DNA from: Chloroflexota bacterium
GTDB lineage: Bacteria; Chloroflexota; UBA11872; VXOZ01
Length of the DNA: 56,886 bases
Assembly (NCBI GenBank): GCA_026710945.1
Contig: JAPOQA010000021.1
Coordinates: 84,070 to 140,955 of the forward strand
Reading direction: 5' to 3'
In this document: positions 17,120 through 56,886 of the stretch, in pieces
Position numbering within the stretch: the stretch's first letter is position 1
How the letters are laid out: every line of letters begins with the position of its first letter
Notes under the pieces: model-generated
Databases searched by the model: none
Seen by the model: the letters and a program-made list of their open reading frames with translations, nothing else
What the model was told of the DNA's origin: nothing
Program-made: the position numbers and the translations under genes

Positions 17120-17402
17120 AGGAGACCTTTGCGCAACTCAAGCGGTAGCGAAATAGTTCCCTCTCCCTCGACGGAGATCTTTGCATAACCCTCGCCACAG
17201 CGCGGATGTCCCCTCTCCCTCGACGGGAGAGGGCTAGAGCCTGCCCCGTACGTGATACGGGGGTGAGGGTGGATCTCCTGAAATCTCTCCATATGCACAC
17301 CGAGTCTGCCCTGATACGTCTTGACACTGCCCAGCGTAAAGGGCCGTCGTACCAAAAAGACCCCCTCACCCCAACCCTCTCCTCCAGGAGAGGGAGTGCC
17401 CC
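17120..17402. repeat. Long composite repeat, copy A
   Basis: A CTC-rich unit comprising GAGACCTTTGCG, the hairpin CCCTCTCCCTCGACGGGAGAGGG, and a second hairpin CCCCGTA/TACGGGG. It continues with GGTGAGGGTG, CTCCTGAAATCTCTCCATATG, and at the far end the CCCCTCACCCC-AACCCTCTCC palindrome with AGGAGAGGGAG. The same order recurs at 37938-38222 and, truncated by the window edge, at 56690-56886. It fills most of the space between hdc and the binding-protein gene. No gene is seen. Confidence 0.85.
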
Positions 17403-36451: not shown

Positions 36452-36594
36452 GCTTTTCTCCTTCTTGGGTGTCCTCTTGGCTTGCCCTCGCTAAGGTGGG
36501 AATGTCCGCTCTTGTTTCGCAAACTCTTGCGCAGTTGTTACTGTGGCGTGCGCACAGGTTGGAACGGCAAGATTCTCCCCTCATCCCGGCCCTC

Positions 36595-36939
36595 TCCCCC
36601 AGGGAGAGGGAGTAGTCCGGCCTGCTGCCAGGTTGGGCGAGGTTCCCCCTAGGGAGAGAGAGTAATCCCCGCCTGCCATTCAGGTCGATCTAACGTCTCT
36701 CCAGGGAGAGGGAGTGATCCGCGCGTTCCGCCTGGGTTGTGCAGTAGCCTCCTCAGGGAGAAGGGGGGAATTCCCGCTCGCCGTTTAGGTTGTGCAAATG
36801 TGTCCCTTGGGAGGGGGGAGTTCTCATCTGCCCCTCAAGTCTTGTGAGGGTCGCCCCTAAGGTGATGGGGCAAGCCTCGCCTCCCGTTTCGGTTGAGCTC
36901 CGTTTTCCCCAGGCAGAAGGTGTCCTCTTGGCATAATTC
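36595..36939. repeat. Decayed 52-bp tandem repeat array
   Basis: Seven successive copies start with AGGGAGAGGG-like sequence at 36601, 36651, 36703, 36755, about 36807, 36859 and 36911, giving intervals of 50, 52, 52, 52, 52 and 52 bases. Units run ...CCAGGGAGAGGGAGTAATCC-GCGCCTGCC-TTCAGGTTGTG.... They become more diverged to the right. The first unit merges with a CCCTCATCCC-GGCCCTCTCC palindrome of the dispersed family (36578-36613). Confidence 0.75.
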
Positions 36940-37937: not shown

Positions 37938-38222
37938 GGAGACCTTTGCGAAACCTAAGCGGAAGCGATAGTGTTCCCTCTCCCTCGACGGGAGAGAGCT
38001 AGAGCCTGCCCCGTACTCGATACGGGGGTGAGGGTGAATCTCCTGAAATCTCTCCATATGCACACCGATTCTGCCTGATACGTCTTGACACTACTCAGCG
38101 TAAAGGGCCAATGTAGCAAAAAGACCCCCTCACCCCGACCCTCTCCCCCAGGAGAGGGAGTGCCCCTGTTTGAAAGTGGGGTTACGCAAAGATATCCACC
38201 AGGAGAGGACCGGGGCGAAGGG
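37938..38222. repeat. Long composite repeat, copy B
   Basis: Same module order as copy A (17120-17402), colinear: GAGACCTTTGCG, CCCTCTCCCTCGACGGGAGAG hairpin, CCCCGTA/TACGGGG hairpin, CTCCTGAAATCTCTCCATATG, and CCCCTCACCCCGACCCTCTCC-CCCAGGAGAGGGAG. It extends with TGTTTGAAAGTGGGGTTACG, which reappears inverted in copy C. It lies between convergent yhhQ and queF. Confidence 0.85.
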
Positions 38223-44280: not shown

Positions 44281-44315
44281 TCCCTCTTCCGCAGGGAGAG
44301 GGTCGGGGTGAGGGC
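44281..44315. repeat. Dispersed CCCTCT/AGGGAGAGGG...GGTGAGGG palindrome
   Basis: TCCCTCTTCCGCAGGGAGAG-GGTCGGGGTGAGGGC, the reverse-oriented form of the dispersed element (compare 48396-48430). It is directly followed by the palindrome at 44321-44352. Confidence 0.75.
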
Positions 44316-46326: not shown

Positions 46327-47700
46327 GTGGGAAAGAGACAGCGCATAGTTCTTGACCGGAGAGCCTTCTTGCAGTTCTCTGGCGCAAGCCTCGCGGCGTG
46401 TGGGGCCACCTTTGCCCTGAGTTGGCCTGCCTACGCCGAAATCGCTGACCCGGAAAGCGAAGGCAGAGACGCAATCTCTTTGGAAGACCTGCTTCAGTAT
46501 GCCCGCACTGGAGCCATACCATTCTGGGTCGCCAGCGAGTTTGTAGGAACCTGGTTAAACAACCTCAGATTCAATGCCTTACCATCTGATTTGAATCGTT
46601 ATTACCGGAATGCGGGTAGCACATATCGAAGTCTCGTAGGTGCAGAATCGATCTGGGAGACAATCCCGCGGTCAGTACGTGTGGGCGGACCGGATGCGCT
46701 GCGGGAGTTTCATGCGTCAAGGGACTGGAGTCACTTTGTTCCTCGCAGCCTTGGTGGCAGTGACAGCGCTAACGCGGGCATTTTCGAAAAGAAACTGCTC
46801 AATCAAGTCAGAGGCGCCGCACCAATGACTGCGGCTGAGATTGCCCAAGCTAGGTACGCACTCAATGCAACGGCCGTGCGCAATGCCGTTACATTGGCGG
46901 CCAAGGCCACGGTTACGGGGGCCTTGGTCGCTGTTGCGATTGAGGGGACATTTGCTGTAATGGAATACGGCTTACTGTACCAGGAAGGAAAGATAAGCCA
47001 ACCTGAATTCTTGCTGCAAGTTGGACAACATCTAATCCAAAGTGGGGGAGTATCTGTTGCGATAGCAGGACTAGTGGTTGGTCTGACGCTAGTATTCCCG
47101 CCGCTCCTACTAATACTTAGCTCTATGACATTGCCCTTGGCCTTTGTTGTCTTCGCACTTGTAGGGCATCGTTTCTACGAATTGAGCGCTGAGTGGATGC
47201 AGAGCGTTGGACTTGCACCGTTGCAAGCAGCCTGGGACAAAGCGAAGGCCGTCCCATTGCAGGTTTGGGCAGAAGCGTCACATACTCTTGCAGGATTTCG
47301 TCAGCAATTGGGAGATATCTCTACTTGGGCCTTGAGGGAAGCGAAAGATGTTGCCGAGGGCGCTTGGCAGGGAACAGGAGATGTTTCCGGAGTGTTGTGG
47401 CAGGGAGCCGGAAATCTCTCTATGAGAACTTGGCAGCAAGTAGAGGGCCTACCTGATGGCACTTTGGTAGGCATAGGCGAATTCTCTGCTGGAGCCTGGC
47501 AGGGCGCGGGTAGCGCTTCCCAAAGAGCGGTGCAGGTTACTTCGGAGACATCGATGGGCGCTTGGGAGTGGGTATCAGTTACGAGTGACGGAATTGCTGT
47601 GGACGTAACTGGGGTGCCAGAGCAAATACTAGATTGGATTAGAGATGCGGCACTACCATGGCTTCGAGATAGGGCGTCACCAGCCGTGTTTTGGAAATAG
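46327..47700 (+). CDS. Tat-signal protein with HNH-toxin-like segment and membrane hairpin
   Basis: 457 residues, GTG start. A Tat-type leader (LDRRAFLQFSGASLAACGAT) precedes about 100 residues of unknown type. Then comes DWSHFVPRSLGGSDSANAG (about 132-150) with IFEKKLLNQVRGA after it. This matches in layout the WSH...PRS..GGS...N..FE...N..RGA block of HNH/ENDO VII-like toxin nucleases. A hydrophobic region follows (about 185-285) with two or three membrane segments (ATVTGALVAVAIEGTFAVME, SVAIAGLVVGLTLVFPPLLL). The C-terminal 120 residues carry repeats around AWQGAG/LWQGAG. It may be an exported toxin or a membrane-docked relative. Toxicity is inferred; no immunity gene is recognised downstream. 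Confidence 0.62.
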   Translation: MGKRQRIVLDRRAFLQFSGASLAACGATFALSWPAYAEIADPESEGRDAISLEDLLQYARTGAIPFWVASEFVGTWLNNLRFNALPSDLNRYYRNAGSTYRSLVGAESIWETIPRSVRVGGPDALREFHASRDWSHFVPRSLGGSDSANAGIFEKKLLNQVRGAAPMTAAEIAQARYALNATAVRNAVTLAAKATVTGALVAVAIEGTFAVMEYGLLYQEGKISQPEFLLQVGQHLIQSGGVSVAIAGLVVGLTLVFPPLLLILSSMTLPLAFVVFALVGHRFYELSAEWMQSVGLAPLQAAWDKAKAVPLQVWAEASHTLAGFRQQLGDISTWALREAKDVAEGAWQGTGDVSGVLWQGAGNLSMRTWQQVEGLPDGTLVGIGEFSAGAWQGAGSASQRAVQVTSETSMGAWEWVSVTSDGIAVDVTGVPEQILDWIRDAALPWLRDRASPAVFWK

Positions 47701-47780
47701 GCCGGAGCATGAAGGGCGCATTCAGCAGACGTTGGCCGCGCGCTTGTTTCGGAGGAGGAGCGATCCTTCTCCTGTCAACG

Positions 47781-47809
47781 TTGAGAACGCTCAGACTTGA
47801 CGGTATAAT
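47781..47809 (+). promoter_or_regulatory. Promoter upstream of the 47938 gene
   Basis: TTGAGA (47781-47786), 17-base spacer, perfect TATAAT (47804-47809). Transcripts would run through the palindrome at 47846-47873 before the gene. Confidence 0.6.
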
Positions 47810-47845
47810 CTCTGCGTGACGCGCGAGAAGACTTGCGATTGAAGA

Positions 47846-47873
47846 TGGATTCCCGCGCAAGCGGGAATGACGG
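47846..47873. repeat. Dispersed palindrome ATTCCCGCGCAAGCGGGAAT
   Basis: TGGATTCCCGCGCAAGCGGG-AATGACGG: ATTCCC, eight bases, GGGAAT, which has the same spacing as the dRS3 repeats of Neisseria (known family; relation not shown). In an mRNA leader it would form an 8-bp hairpin. Confidence 0.7.
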
Positions 47874-47937
47874 AAAACGGTGTTCTGATCTCAGAATGAT
47901 GTCGGACTGTGCGGCTCATGAGCCGCAGTTAGGAGAC

Positions 47938-48246
47938 ATGGCCCAGATGCCGATGCGGGATGAACAAGCGTTGTGGTGTGTGGAGTGGGGCAAGCGCGCC
48001 ACCGAGGGACGGTACTATCCAGACGGGTACTCGCTGCACACGTCCTTGGCCGACGCCGAAGAGTATCAGCAGGTCAACCTGACGCGCTCCATGGCGGCGA
48101 CCCAATGGCAGGGCGAACCCCGCGTGCTCCTGCGCAAGCCCTACCGCTGCCTGGTGCCTGATTGGCAGCACCAGCAGACCCTGGCCAGCGACATCGGCGC
48201 CCACTTCAGCGGCGCCTCCCCCATGCCGCTCTCAGAGGCCGGTTGA
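47938..48246 (+). CDS. Small hypothetical protein
   Basis: About 103 residues from the ATG at 47938 (ATGs at 47947 and 47953 are better spaced from the AGGAG at 47931; the frame is open further upstream through a repeat). Sequence: ALWCVEWGKRATEGRYYPDGY, HTSLADAEEYQQVNLTRS, KPYRCLVPDWQHQQTLAS. It is hydrophilic and Trp-rich, with no signal. A good promoter lies upstream. Family not recognised. Confidence 0.6.
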   Translation: MAQMPMRDEQALWCVEWGKRATEGRYYPDGYSLHTSLADAEEYQQVNLTRSMAATQWQGEPRVLLRKPYRCLVPDWQHQQTLASDIGAHFSGASPMPLSEAG

Positions 48247-48395
48247 GGGGACAATTGTCTTTCAGCACTGCCTCATCTCAAATGCCAAGTCACAGTGCAG
48301 TTCGTCGCTGCAATTGCCGCGCTTTCTTCTTGCATTGTCCGCGAAAGTGCAAGAGAAATCTTGGACACTCTCCATCTCGCGGAGACCCTCTGGTT

Positions 48396-48430
48396 CCCTC
48401 TCCTGGGGGAGAGGGTTAGGGTGAGGGCGA
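48396..48430. repeat. Left inverted-repeat arm of the DUF559 cassette
   Basis: CCCTCTCCTGGGGGAGAGGG-TTAGGGTGAGGGCGA; its reverse complement matches 48778-48812 at 33 of 35 positions. It contains the TAA stop codon of the DUF559 gene (48416-48418). Internally it forms the hairpin CCCTCTCC/GGAGAGGG. Confidence 0.9.
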
Positions 48431-48787
48431 CTCTTGGACTTGCCACTCACGTAGGGTAGCATCCAAGACTGCTTCCGTCTGCGTCAGCACCTGTTTGATC
48501 CAGATTCGACCTACGCGAAACCCCTGTGCCTCCGGCCAATCCGTGCGAACTGAATCCTCTTCTTTGCGAAGCTGGCGCTGACCACCATCTATCTCAATCG
48601 CCAGGATTCCCTCATAGCGCAGGAAGTCAACAATGTACTTGCCACGGGGTGCTTGTCTGCGGAATTTGCAGCCGACAAACTGACGACTGTGCAAGTGACG
48701 CCGCAGGATCCTCTCGGCTTCTGTTGAGTTCTTGCGGAGTCGTCGTGCTCTAGCGGCGCCTTGCGATGCCAAGACTTTCGCCCTCAC
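48416..48787 (-). CDS. DUF559 endonuclease (Vsr-like fold)
   Basis: 123 residues, the usual DUF559 length. Signature blocks: ARRLRKNSTEAERILRRHLHSRQ, FRRQAPRGKYIVDFLRYEG, and the catalytic-type acidic pair in IVDF and LAIEIDGGQR. The fold is that of very-short-patch-repair and other PD-(D/E)xK nucleases; the target is unknown. The terminal FRVGRIWIKQVL replaces the common RFWNNEVL. The GTG start (48787) and the stop (48416) lie in the two arms of an inverted repeat, and the last residues ESPSP are coded by the repeat. No ribosome site is obvious because the repeat occupies the leader. Confidence 0.9.
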   Translation of the reverse strand: MRAKVLASQGAARARRLRKNSTEAERILRRHLHSRQFVGCKFRRQAPRGKYIVDFLRYEGILAIEIDGGQRQLRKEEDSVRTDWPEAQGFRVGRIWIKQVLTQTEAVLDATLREWQVQESPSP

Positions 48788-48812
48788 CCAAACCTTCTCC
48801 CCCAGGAGAGGG
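48778..48812. repeat. Right inverted-repeat arm of the DUF559 cassette
   Basis: TCGCCCTCACCCAAACCTTC-TCCCCCAGGAGAGGG, 33 of 35 identical to the inverted left arm. It contains the GTG start of the DUF559 gene (48785-48787). Confidence 0.9.
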
Positions 48813-48927
48813 CTTTAGATTCAAAACCGCTGCGATTGCATCCAAGAACTGCGGCGTGTTCACTATCCCGCACACGGCGAACGAGCCGAGGAGCTTCCCG
48901 CAACACCTAATTCAACTGACGGTGAGA

Positions 48928-50241
48928 TCACGCAAGTGTGCCCGCGATGCGGAGGGCTTCGGACACTACGATGTGTTCGGCTTGGGGCTGGTAGGGTGCG
49001 GGCAGGTGGTAGAACTTGTGCGAGCGCGTGGGTTCGTAGCCGCCGTCTGCGTATGATGCCTCGGTGCAGAGGTAGCCGATGGTGTCGTTGGAGTAGCCTA
49101 ACGTCCACGCCGCTTGACCCACGTGGTCGGCCATGAGCGCCGCCTCGATCTGCAGGCCGACTTCCAGGAAAACCTCGGCTCCTAGACCCACCATCCAGAG
49201 CCCGCCGATGCGCAAGACCTGGATGGGGAAGTCCACGCTCGTCGGCAGCGACCCGTTGCTCTGCAGGCGGGACAGCATCGACCCGGTCCAAAGCTGCATA
49301 TAGTTGTCGTCTTTCGCCTTGGCACGCATGTCCTTGAGTTCCGCCGCCGTGGGTGGATCCATTAGCGGCAAAGACACGAGCTCGTGCGCCACGCCGATGG
49401 GATAGCCCACCACCATAGTGGCTTCCCGCGCCGCGCGGGCGGCCAGCGCGCCGACGCCGCGGCCGTGGGTGTCGATTTCCTCGCCGCTGCAAGGATGGAA
49501 GCGTGTGCCGCCCGGTGCGATGACGCGCACGCGCATGTTGCCCGCACAGCCCTGCAAAAAGCCAACCACTGGCGCTCCCTGGTCGGCGAACTGTCGTTCC
49601 ACTTCCTGTCTGGCGGCGGCCACGTAGTCGCCGTTCACCACCGGCATGCGGTAGGCGTACCCGGTCGGATGGAACGCCCCCGAGAAGAGTATGGCAACCA
49701 CGGTCCCATCCAGACGCTCGAAGCGCATTGCGCGGATGCGCTGGTCCACGATGCCGTCGTAGTTCGGCGCGAGCTGGGCCTCGCCGCCCTCCATGCGCCG
49801 CCGGTTGATGGCGAAGTTTCCTTCCGCCGCGCCCACGCGCAGCGCCACTGGCTCCAGGCTCGCGTCGGCGCGGGTGACGGCGTCGGCGAGGGATTGCACC
49901 AAACTCTGGTAGTACGTTTCATCAATCTCATCGGGAAGGGCCTGCAGAATCGCGGGTCCGAAGTGACTGTGCGAGGCATTGATCAAGACGCTGGCGCCAG
50001 GAATCGACGACTGCCGTGACACGCGCTCCCGCACGGCGTTGACCAACGGCGCATCCAAACCGAGCACGTCAAGTCCGACAATTGCCACCTTGTGCTCACC
50101 GTCGCTGAGCACCACGGCGGTGGCGTAGAGATCGTGGTAGACGCTCTCCACCCGCAGGTCCGCCCGGCTCGATTGGAACGCGCTCCCCATGGGCGGCGTG
50201 ACCGCCACTTTCGCCCCACCGGCCATTAATCTCGTTGCCAT
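48928..50241 (-). CDS. Neutral/alkaline non-lysosomal ceramidase-like protein
   Basis: 437 residues, corresponding to the N-terminal domain of neutral ceramidases. That domain hydrolyses the amide bond of ceramide in its characterised members; stand-alone bacterial forms are common and of unknown substrate. Visible: AGGAKVAVTPPMGSAFQ near the start, NASHSHFGPAIL with metal-binding His, FSGAFHPTGYAYRM with a second His, VNGDYVAAARQEVE, GFLQGCAGNMRVRV and GYSNDTIGYLCTEASYADGG. No signal peptide, so the enzyme is probably intracellular. The start has AGGAGCGACT upstream. It is adjacent to another amidohydrolase gene in the same orientation. Confidence 0.88.
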   Translation of the reverse strand: MATRLMAGGAKVAVTPPMGSAFQSSRADLRVESVYHDLYATAVVLSDGEHKVAIVGLDVLGLDAPLVNAVRERVSRQSSIPGASVLINASHSHFGPAILQALPDEIDETYYQSLVQSLADAVTRADASLEPVALRVGAAEGNFAINRRRMEGGEAQLAPNYDGIVDQRIRAMRFERLDGTVVAILFSGAFHPTGYAYRMPVVNGDYVAAARQEVERQFADQGAPVVGFLQGCAGNMRVRVIAPGGTRFHPCSGEEIDTHGRGVGALAARAAREATMVVGYPIGVAHELVSLPLMDPPTAAELKDMRAKAKDDNYMQLWTGSMLSRLQSNGSLPTSVDFPIQVLRIGGLWMVGLGAEVFLEVGLQIEAALMADHVGQAAWTLGYSNDTIGYLCTEASYADGGYEPTRSHKFYHLPAPYQPQAEHIVVSEALRIAGTLA

Positions 50242-50352: not shown

Positions 50353-50387
50353 CCCCTCACCCCAACCCTCTCCCCCAGGAGAGGGAG
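50353..50387. repeat. Solitary dispersed CCCCTCACCCCAACCC...GGAGAGGGAG element
   Basis: CCCCTCACCCCAACCCTCTC-CCCCAGGAGAGGGAG with the same layout as the DUF559 cassette arm but no nuclease gene. It lies between the ceramidase-like gene and the amidohydrolase gene. Confidence 0.85.
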
Positions 50388-56689: not shown

Positions 56690-56886
56690 AAGTCCCCTCT
56701 CCCACCGGAGACTTTTGCATAACCCCACTTTCAAGCAGGGGCACTCCCTTTCCCGTCGAGGAGACCTTTGCATAACCCTCGCCACAGCGCAGATGTCCCC
56801 TCTCCCTCGACGGGAGAGGGCTAGAGCCTGCCCCGTACTCGATACGGGGGTGAGGGTGAATCTCCTGAATTCTCTCCATAGCATAC
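56690..56886. repeat. Long composite repeat, copy C, cut by the window edge
   Basis: Begins with CCCCTCTCCCACCGGAGACT and the inverted form of the copy-B extension (AACCCCACTTTCAAGCAGGG). It then repeats copy A from GAGACCTTTGCATAACCCTC through the two hairpins and CTCCTGAATTCTCTCCATAG to the end of the window. The remainder is outside. Confidence 0.8.

Follow-up and report, generated by a model that had tools for sequence, protein, structure and literature searches.

What is a nuclease gene doing between two inverted, structured repeats that fit it almost to the codon, and does its product act on them? The window, i.e., the whole stretch of 56,886 nucleotides analyzed here, contains a 417-bp unit (positions 48396-48812) in which a DUF559 gene is flanked by inverted arms. 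The arms are identical at 33 of 35 positions (94%) when inverted, as an earlier note on this DNA had stated, and form the sole inverted repeat detected in the interval 47500-49700; the same note correctly placed the start and stop of the gene inside the arms; the GTG of the minus-strand reading frame lies in the tail of the right arm and the TAA in the linker of the left arm (Table 1). The note had further proposed the geometry of a RAYT/REP system with a Vsr-fold nuclease; the geometry and the nuclease fold stand, whereas a GTAG-type REP identity does not, the arms being box C / triplex motifs. The reading preferred here, with a probability of about 0.72, is that the unit is one instance of a widespread, minimal mobile element (~0.4-0.57 kb), built as arm-DUF559-arm, whose nuclease acts on structured ends.

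The unit, its arms and its protein

Each arm has three parts: a hairpin, a 3-nt linker, and a mirror-symmetric tail aimed at the gene. Read by the purine-motif triplex rule (G on GC, A or T on AT), the tail repeats the hairpin's purine arm in mirror order, a relation seen in the window-type arm as GGGAGAGGG vs. GGGTGAGGG; the left-arm tail obeys the rule at 8/8 positions (tail shuffle p 0.004) and the right-arm tail at 7/8, which is not significant taken singly. With T placed opposite A, the rule also holds in lineages with unlike stems (GGGGGAGGG/GGGTGGGGG; AAAGGGGGA/AGGGGGATT), the latter an A/T-rich variant, AAAGGGGGA-cta-AGGGGGATT, that keeps the mirror between tail and stem. This mirror was better than in tail shuffles (p<0.05) in 25 of 38 arms; the Methylotenera arms, in whose imperfect stem the triplex script saw no hairpin, and the mis-set locus L145 were not counted as support.

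Table 1. Positions of the unit's components and of the dispersed arm copies within the window.
Feature	Position	Strand	Remark
Left arm, box C / triplex motif	48396..48430	+	Tail directed into gene
Left-arm hairpin	48396-48415		CCCTCTCC-tggg-GGAGAGGG
Left-arm linker	48416-48418		TTA
Left-arm tail	48419-48427		GGGTGAGGG; directed into gene
DUF559 (YcjD family) EDxHD/Vsr-like nuclease gene	48416..48787	-	123 codons; PF04480 match
Right arm, inverted copy of motif with substitutions	48778..48812	-	GGAGAAGG stem; tail inward, hairpin outward
Dispersed arm copy	17363..17394	-	Opposite hairpin 17211-17233, whose tail is degenerate
Dispersed arm copy	36578..36610	-	More diverged
Dispersed arm copy	38127..38158	-	
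Dispersed arm copy	44281..44314	+	Diverged stem, intact tail
Dispersed arm copy	50354..50385	-	

Box C or PIT motifs have been known from E. coli since the 1990s. Holder et al. (2015; PMC4666352) described the motif, earlier named box C or PIT, in >260 genomes and 23 times in E. coli MG1655, with linkers of type A (TTA) or type B (CCG); the E. coli motif, TM_ECO, formed as a triplex in vitro, TM loci showed greater rearrangement, and neither a mobility gene nor a transposase was found near TMs, for which no function was reported. Comparison of the arm consensus with Table 1 of that study found the hairpin, the short linker and the mirror-symmetric third-strand tail all present; judged by its sequence, the arm is the motif known from E. 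coli as box C, PIT or intrastrand triplex motif (TM). It shares with TM_ECO the order CCCTCNCC..GGAGAGGG, TTA or CCG linker, and GGGTGAGGG, the intergenic position, and the frequent inverted pairing of an A (TTA) with a B (CCG) motif; it differs in that here, as a terminal repeat, it bounds a mobile unit encoding DUF559, and in its range of variants, including A/T-rich ones, while the triplex itself is here read from the letters.

The open reading frame matches PF04480 with 97.9 bits in a profile search (curated cut-off 20.6) and is the only DUF559 gene in its genome. An alignment of 32 homologues has the common core TxAE...KFRRQ...YIxDF...AIEIDGGQH...R...VLRFWN. A structure model of the window protein (mean pLDDT 73) found its best matches in the DUF559 structure 3hrl of N. 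gonorrhoeae (HMM E 6.5e-35) and in the EDxHD homing endonuclease I-Bth0305I (3r3p; Foldseek E 5e-4, TMt 0.76, HMM E 2e-4), the closest solved relative outside DUF559; Vsr itself was a weak match (E 0.7). Earlier work assigned YcjD to the PD-(D/E)XK superfamily, close to Vsr (PMC1189080), and a DUF559 gene to the EDxHD group (PMC9403480). The window protein keeps D54, E65 and D67 and has lost three residues that are almost invariant elsewhere (W29->R, H71->R, N97->I; position 71 is H in 56 of 57 sequences). Since these near-invariant residues are lost and the right arm is mutated, the window copy is probably inactive, a decayed relic. A defense-system role was considered and dropped, as PADLOC gave only weak partial matches to large proteins. 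Upstream of the unit, positions 46327-47700 hold a 457-aa open reading frame without a Pfam match.

Association of DUF559 genes with arms across bacteria

A single scan of 84,980 species genomes yielded 52 DUF559 relatives from many phyla, 43 of them with full flanks; these relatives were picked by similarity and share descent. Of these 43 DUF559 genes, 27 are bridged by an inverted repeat (score >=15), vs. 0 of the 134 ORFs taken as controls from these loci (Fisher p 5e-21); the remaining 16 of 43 lack arms. In a second sample, arms were present at 9 of 17 viral-contig loci, and loci from a plasmid collection had them in 3 of 7 cases. The proposal that the same kind of arm borders DUF559 genes elsewhere is thus borne out, arm-less genes included in the count, and in every clear case the polarity is the same, hairpin outward and tail inward. 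Both DUF559 genes of the window's genus (in genomes G000 and G002) are flanked by arms. In Adlercreutzia (L067), an inverted repeat from the first pass, TGTTTCACGTGAAACA, looks like a parS site and was dropped with a narrower window.

The arms also follow the gene in number and in distance. In a set of 70 genomes of Sphingomonadaceae, exact TM counts correlate with DUF559 gene counts (rho 0.63, p 4e-9, uncorrected for shared ancestry), and 10 of the 97 TMs listed in Sphingomonadaceae lie <=200 bp from a DUF559 gene vs. 0.07 expected (~140x), so that arms are indeed nearer to DUF559 than genomic density predicts. The nuclease role in spreading or maintaining the repeats that the earlier note suggested is correlative. 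Genome G073 carries 52 exact TMs, mostly in pairs 40-90 bp apart, and 0 DUF559 matches; either DUF559 has been lost there, or another enzyme serves the TMs. TMs likewise occur in genus mates of the window genome that have no DUF559 gene (70 in G001, 18 in G004, 61 in G005).

DUF559 units within one genome have differing arms, and the two arms of one unit are matched: their mean score is 24.2 vs. 14.3 when arms are re-paired within genomes, a value reached in 0 of 20000 permutations. In Methylotenera, both arms are GGGCTAGGG in one species and both are GGGTTAGGG in others. Such matching within the unit is expected if the enzyme is specific to the ends that enclose it, or if the unit is copied repeatedly.

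Dispersed units, empty sites and gene-less pairs

Comparison of related loci shows that a discrete unit moves, carrying the nuclease together with its matched ends. The Sphingomonadaceae genome G016 has 12 DUF559 genes, including four units of ~490 bp that are 89-94% identical and a fifth at 74%, all at unrelated loci; the identity spans arm, gene and arm, and part of some flanks. In Schekmanbacteria (G023), ~13 truncated copies, mostly 94-99% identical, lie at contig ends, break the assembly, and share a common endpoint. These G023 elements (L128-L141) end next to a further palindrome, GGGGTTTATCCCC-N-CGCTAC, resembling a REP of the GTAG type.

Empty sites, anticipated in the earlier note, were found in relatives. 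In Methylotenera, the gap between flanking sequences of 87-88% identity is 12 bp in G221 vs. 571 bp in G008, and ~20 further species are also empty there; among the occupied genomes, the unit has one orientation in three species and the opposite one in two (plus two more by coordinates alone). At the L151 locus of Sphingomonadaceae, 8 of 8 alignable same-genus relatives keep the flanking genes without the unit, with gaps of 58-466 bp in which no TM was present in any of the eight. At the window locus, G001, G002 and G004 hold both neighboring genes and no unit (250-280 bp vs. ~680-700). In the unit's place these three genomes (L206, L207, L205) have a short inverted repeat, TCACTCCGGCGGAAGCCGGAGTC...GATTCCGGCTTGCGCCGGAATGACGG, of a second dispersed family. 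In G005 (L204), an arm half is retained at this locus and abuts the end of a putative IS110-type transposase, as if the insertion sequence had taken the repeat as its target. A target-site duplication or an exact element end was not recognized in comparisons whose nearest empty site, in Methylotenera, is 88% identical.

Some units have instead stayed in place. Between sufB and sufC, and likewise in Azospirillum, units have been inherited vertically at one site over a long time; sufB-sufC was therefore set aside as a case of fresh insertion, DUF559 being old there in many Sphingomonadaceae, which points to persistence more than to new insertion. Plasmid-borne units from Azospirillum and S. parapaucimobilis were also dropped as mobility evidence, having proved either vertically inherited or without a close relative. 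Divergent, arm-less DUF559 genes in or near the suf operon of many Sphingomonadaceae (L188, L202, and the sufB-sufC loci) are possibly domesticated. Vertical persistence, arm-less DUF559 genes and TM-bearing genomes without DUF559 together show that components of the system go missing or become settled independently of one another.

The five gene-less arm copies reported for the window, at 17361, 36578, 38126, 44281 and 50353, all exist, those at 36578 and 44281 being more diverged. A search with the 32-nt arm (<=3 mismatches) gives 5 matches in the window and 0 in 100 shuffles. In genome-wide pattern searches, the exact hairpin core occurs 172 times vs. 0 for the reversed control pattern, and hairpin and tail occur together in 118 copies. 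Two identical hairpins, CCCTCTCCCTCGACGGGAGAGGG, at 17211-17233 and 56798-56820, have CTAGAGCCTGCCCC where the tail would be and are a dispersed repeat related to, yet distinct from, the arm; several further copies of this type lie close to contig ends.

The window's genus also contains dispersed, inward-facing TM pairs that enclose no gene. Nine were examined, with spacers of 76-92 bp, and all nine (L253-L260, L265) join one A-like linker (TTA/CTA) to one B-like linker (CCG/TCG), a rule that the five E. coli TM pairs also obey (PMC4666352); by eye, several of the spacers look homologous. These pairs look like REPIN- or MITE-style derivatives of the same system.

A candidate mechanism, its rivals and known relatives

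The proposed mobilizer is DUF559 itself, and its chemistry is likewise inferred. The DUF559 protein would recognize its own arms once these, in supercoiled or single-stranded DNA, have folded into a hairpin or a triplex, and would nick or cut DNA at the folded arm; the cut would drive copying or moving of the unit into intergenic DNA. Gene-less TM pairs would be served in trans, as a RAYT serves REPINs, and solo TMs would be remains after decay or deletion. On balance it seems probable that these units represent a new kind of autonomous mobile element, minimal in build and present in many bacterial phyla, in which DUF559 recognizes folded triplex ends and gene-less TM pairs are non-autonomous dependants. 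For the joining step, true transposition is favored, at about even odds, since most empty sites have no TM; break-induced, homing-like gene conversion is an unlikely route, kept in play by the fold and by the identical arms.

A free-standing DUF559 homing endonuclease that cuts gene-less TMs or TM pairs, with gene conversion via the arms copying the gene in, would agree with the kinship to I-Bth0305I, with arms that could supply homology and are identical within a unit and different between species, and with the absence of a recognized target-site duplication; the Methylotenera empty site L238, occupied by a solo hairpin whose outer bases are the same, and the arm half retained by G005 can be read in the same way. 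Such homing remains doubtful as the general explanation: most empty sites in close relatives contain no TM, among them all eight at L151, the one in G221, and the shortest sufB-sufC gaps, and shared-arm gene conversion would tend to homogenize the private arms that differ between units of one genome.

DUF559 could also be cargo caught between two TMs that another enzyme, a Y1/RAYT-type or other transposase, moves. This is quite improbable, given that the gene between the arms belongs to one family in many phyla, that control genes were never captured (0/134), that TM number follows DUF559 number, and that no transposase was seen near TMs by Holder et al. (PMC4666352); yet TMs do occur without DUF559, and most genomes in the window's genus encode Y1 transposases, the single Y1-less genome having one TM. 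None of the 10 Y1 loci examined in this genus has a TM within ~1.5-2 kb, and a RAYT origin of the repeats was rejected on this count. Very improbable is an ordinary Vsr-like repair or restriction nuclease residing at structure-prone, rearranging sites that gather TMs, with the arms not its substrate. The Vsr-like fold, the rearrangement-prone TM loci (PMC4666352) and the arm-less DUF559 genes, of which some seem to be fixed next to sufB across many Sphingomonadaceae, would suit it; the constant inward orientation of the tails, the match between the two arms of each unit, the near-identical dispersed units and the 0/134 bridging repeats at neighboring genes would all be left unexplained.

The mobile-element reading has partial parallels in known systems. 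Like transposable elements in general, the units keep their ends in copies at unrelated loci, and relatives show empty sites. REP/REPIN-RAYT systems (PMC3116915, PMC3733652) also consist of dispersed intergenic palindromes, inverted pairs with short spacers, and one enzyme gene bordered on either side by these palindromes; here, in contrast, the enzyme is EDxHD/Vsr-like and not a Y1 (HUH) tyrosine transposase, the Y1 genes of the genus lie away from the repeats, the foot of the arm's hairpin has no GTAG tetranucleotide, the arms bear a triplex tail, and intact DUF559 units may occur in several copies, unlike the single-copy RAYTs. CGTC REPs are likewise palindromic repeats reported without a dedicated transposase, but have another sequence tag (PMC3733652). 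With EDxHD homing endonucleases such as I-Bth0305I (3r3p), DUF559 shares the fold and the conserved core, and the spread of its own gene by a small nuclease would resemble homing; unlike them, the unit has no intron or intein host, is bounded by inverted structured repeats, and lies between genes at many unrelated sites.

A search of the open-access (PMC) literature found nothing that links DUF559 with REP or inverted repeats, and no source or enzyme was previously known there for box C repeats, for which the YcjD family now provides a concrete enzyme candidate. If the proposal is right, it adds a class of mobile element of ~0.4-0.57 kb with triplex-forming ends and a fold not known to mobilize inverted-repeat elements, gives a likely role to DUF559, a very common nuclease family of "unknown" function, and names the enzyme behind box C repeats. 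YcjD of E. coli and NGO0050 of N. gonorrhoeae (3hrl) belong to the same family, PF04480, but occupy single fixed loci with incomplete arms. The gene ycjD is E. coli's own DUF559 gene and has a TM-type arm just downstream only; this TM, between ycjD and fabI, corresponds to entry 9 of TM_ECO at 1351239-1351204 (PMC4666352). Genomes lacking ycjD carry the eef operon at this position (PMC12817139), not a clean empty site, and E. coli was discarded as an empty-site test. E. coli K-12 has both ycjD and the repeats, so that a direct test is possible there. An Rfam search gave subthreshold matches only, among them the arm at 48394-48428 against the whalefall-1 RNA (RF01762; 29.2 bits, threshold 37); the whalefall-1 family may be a TM-type DNA repeat instead of an RNA.
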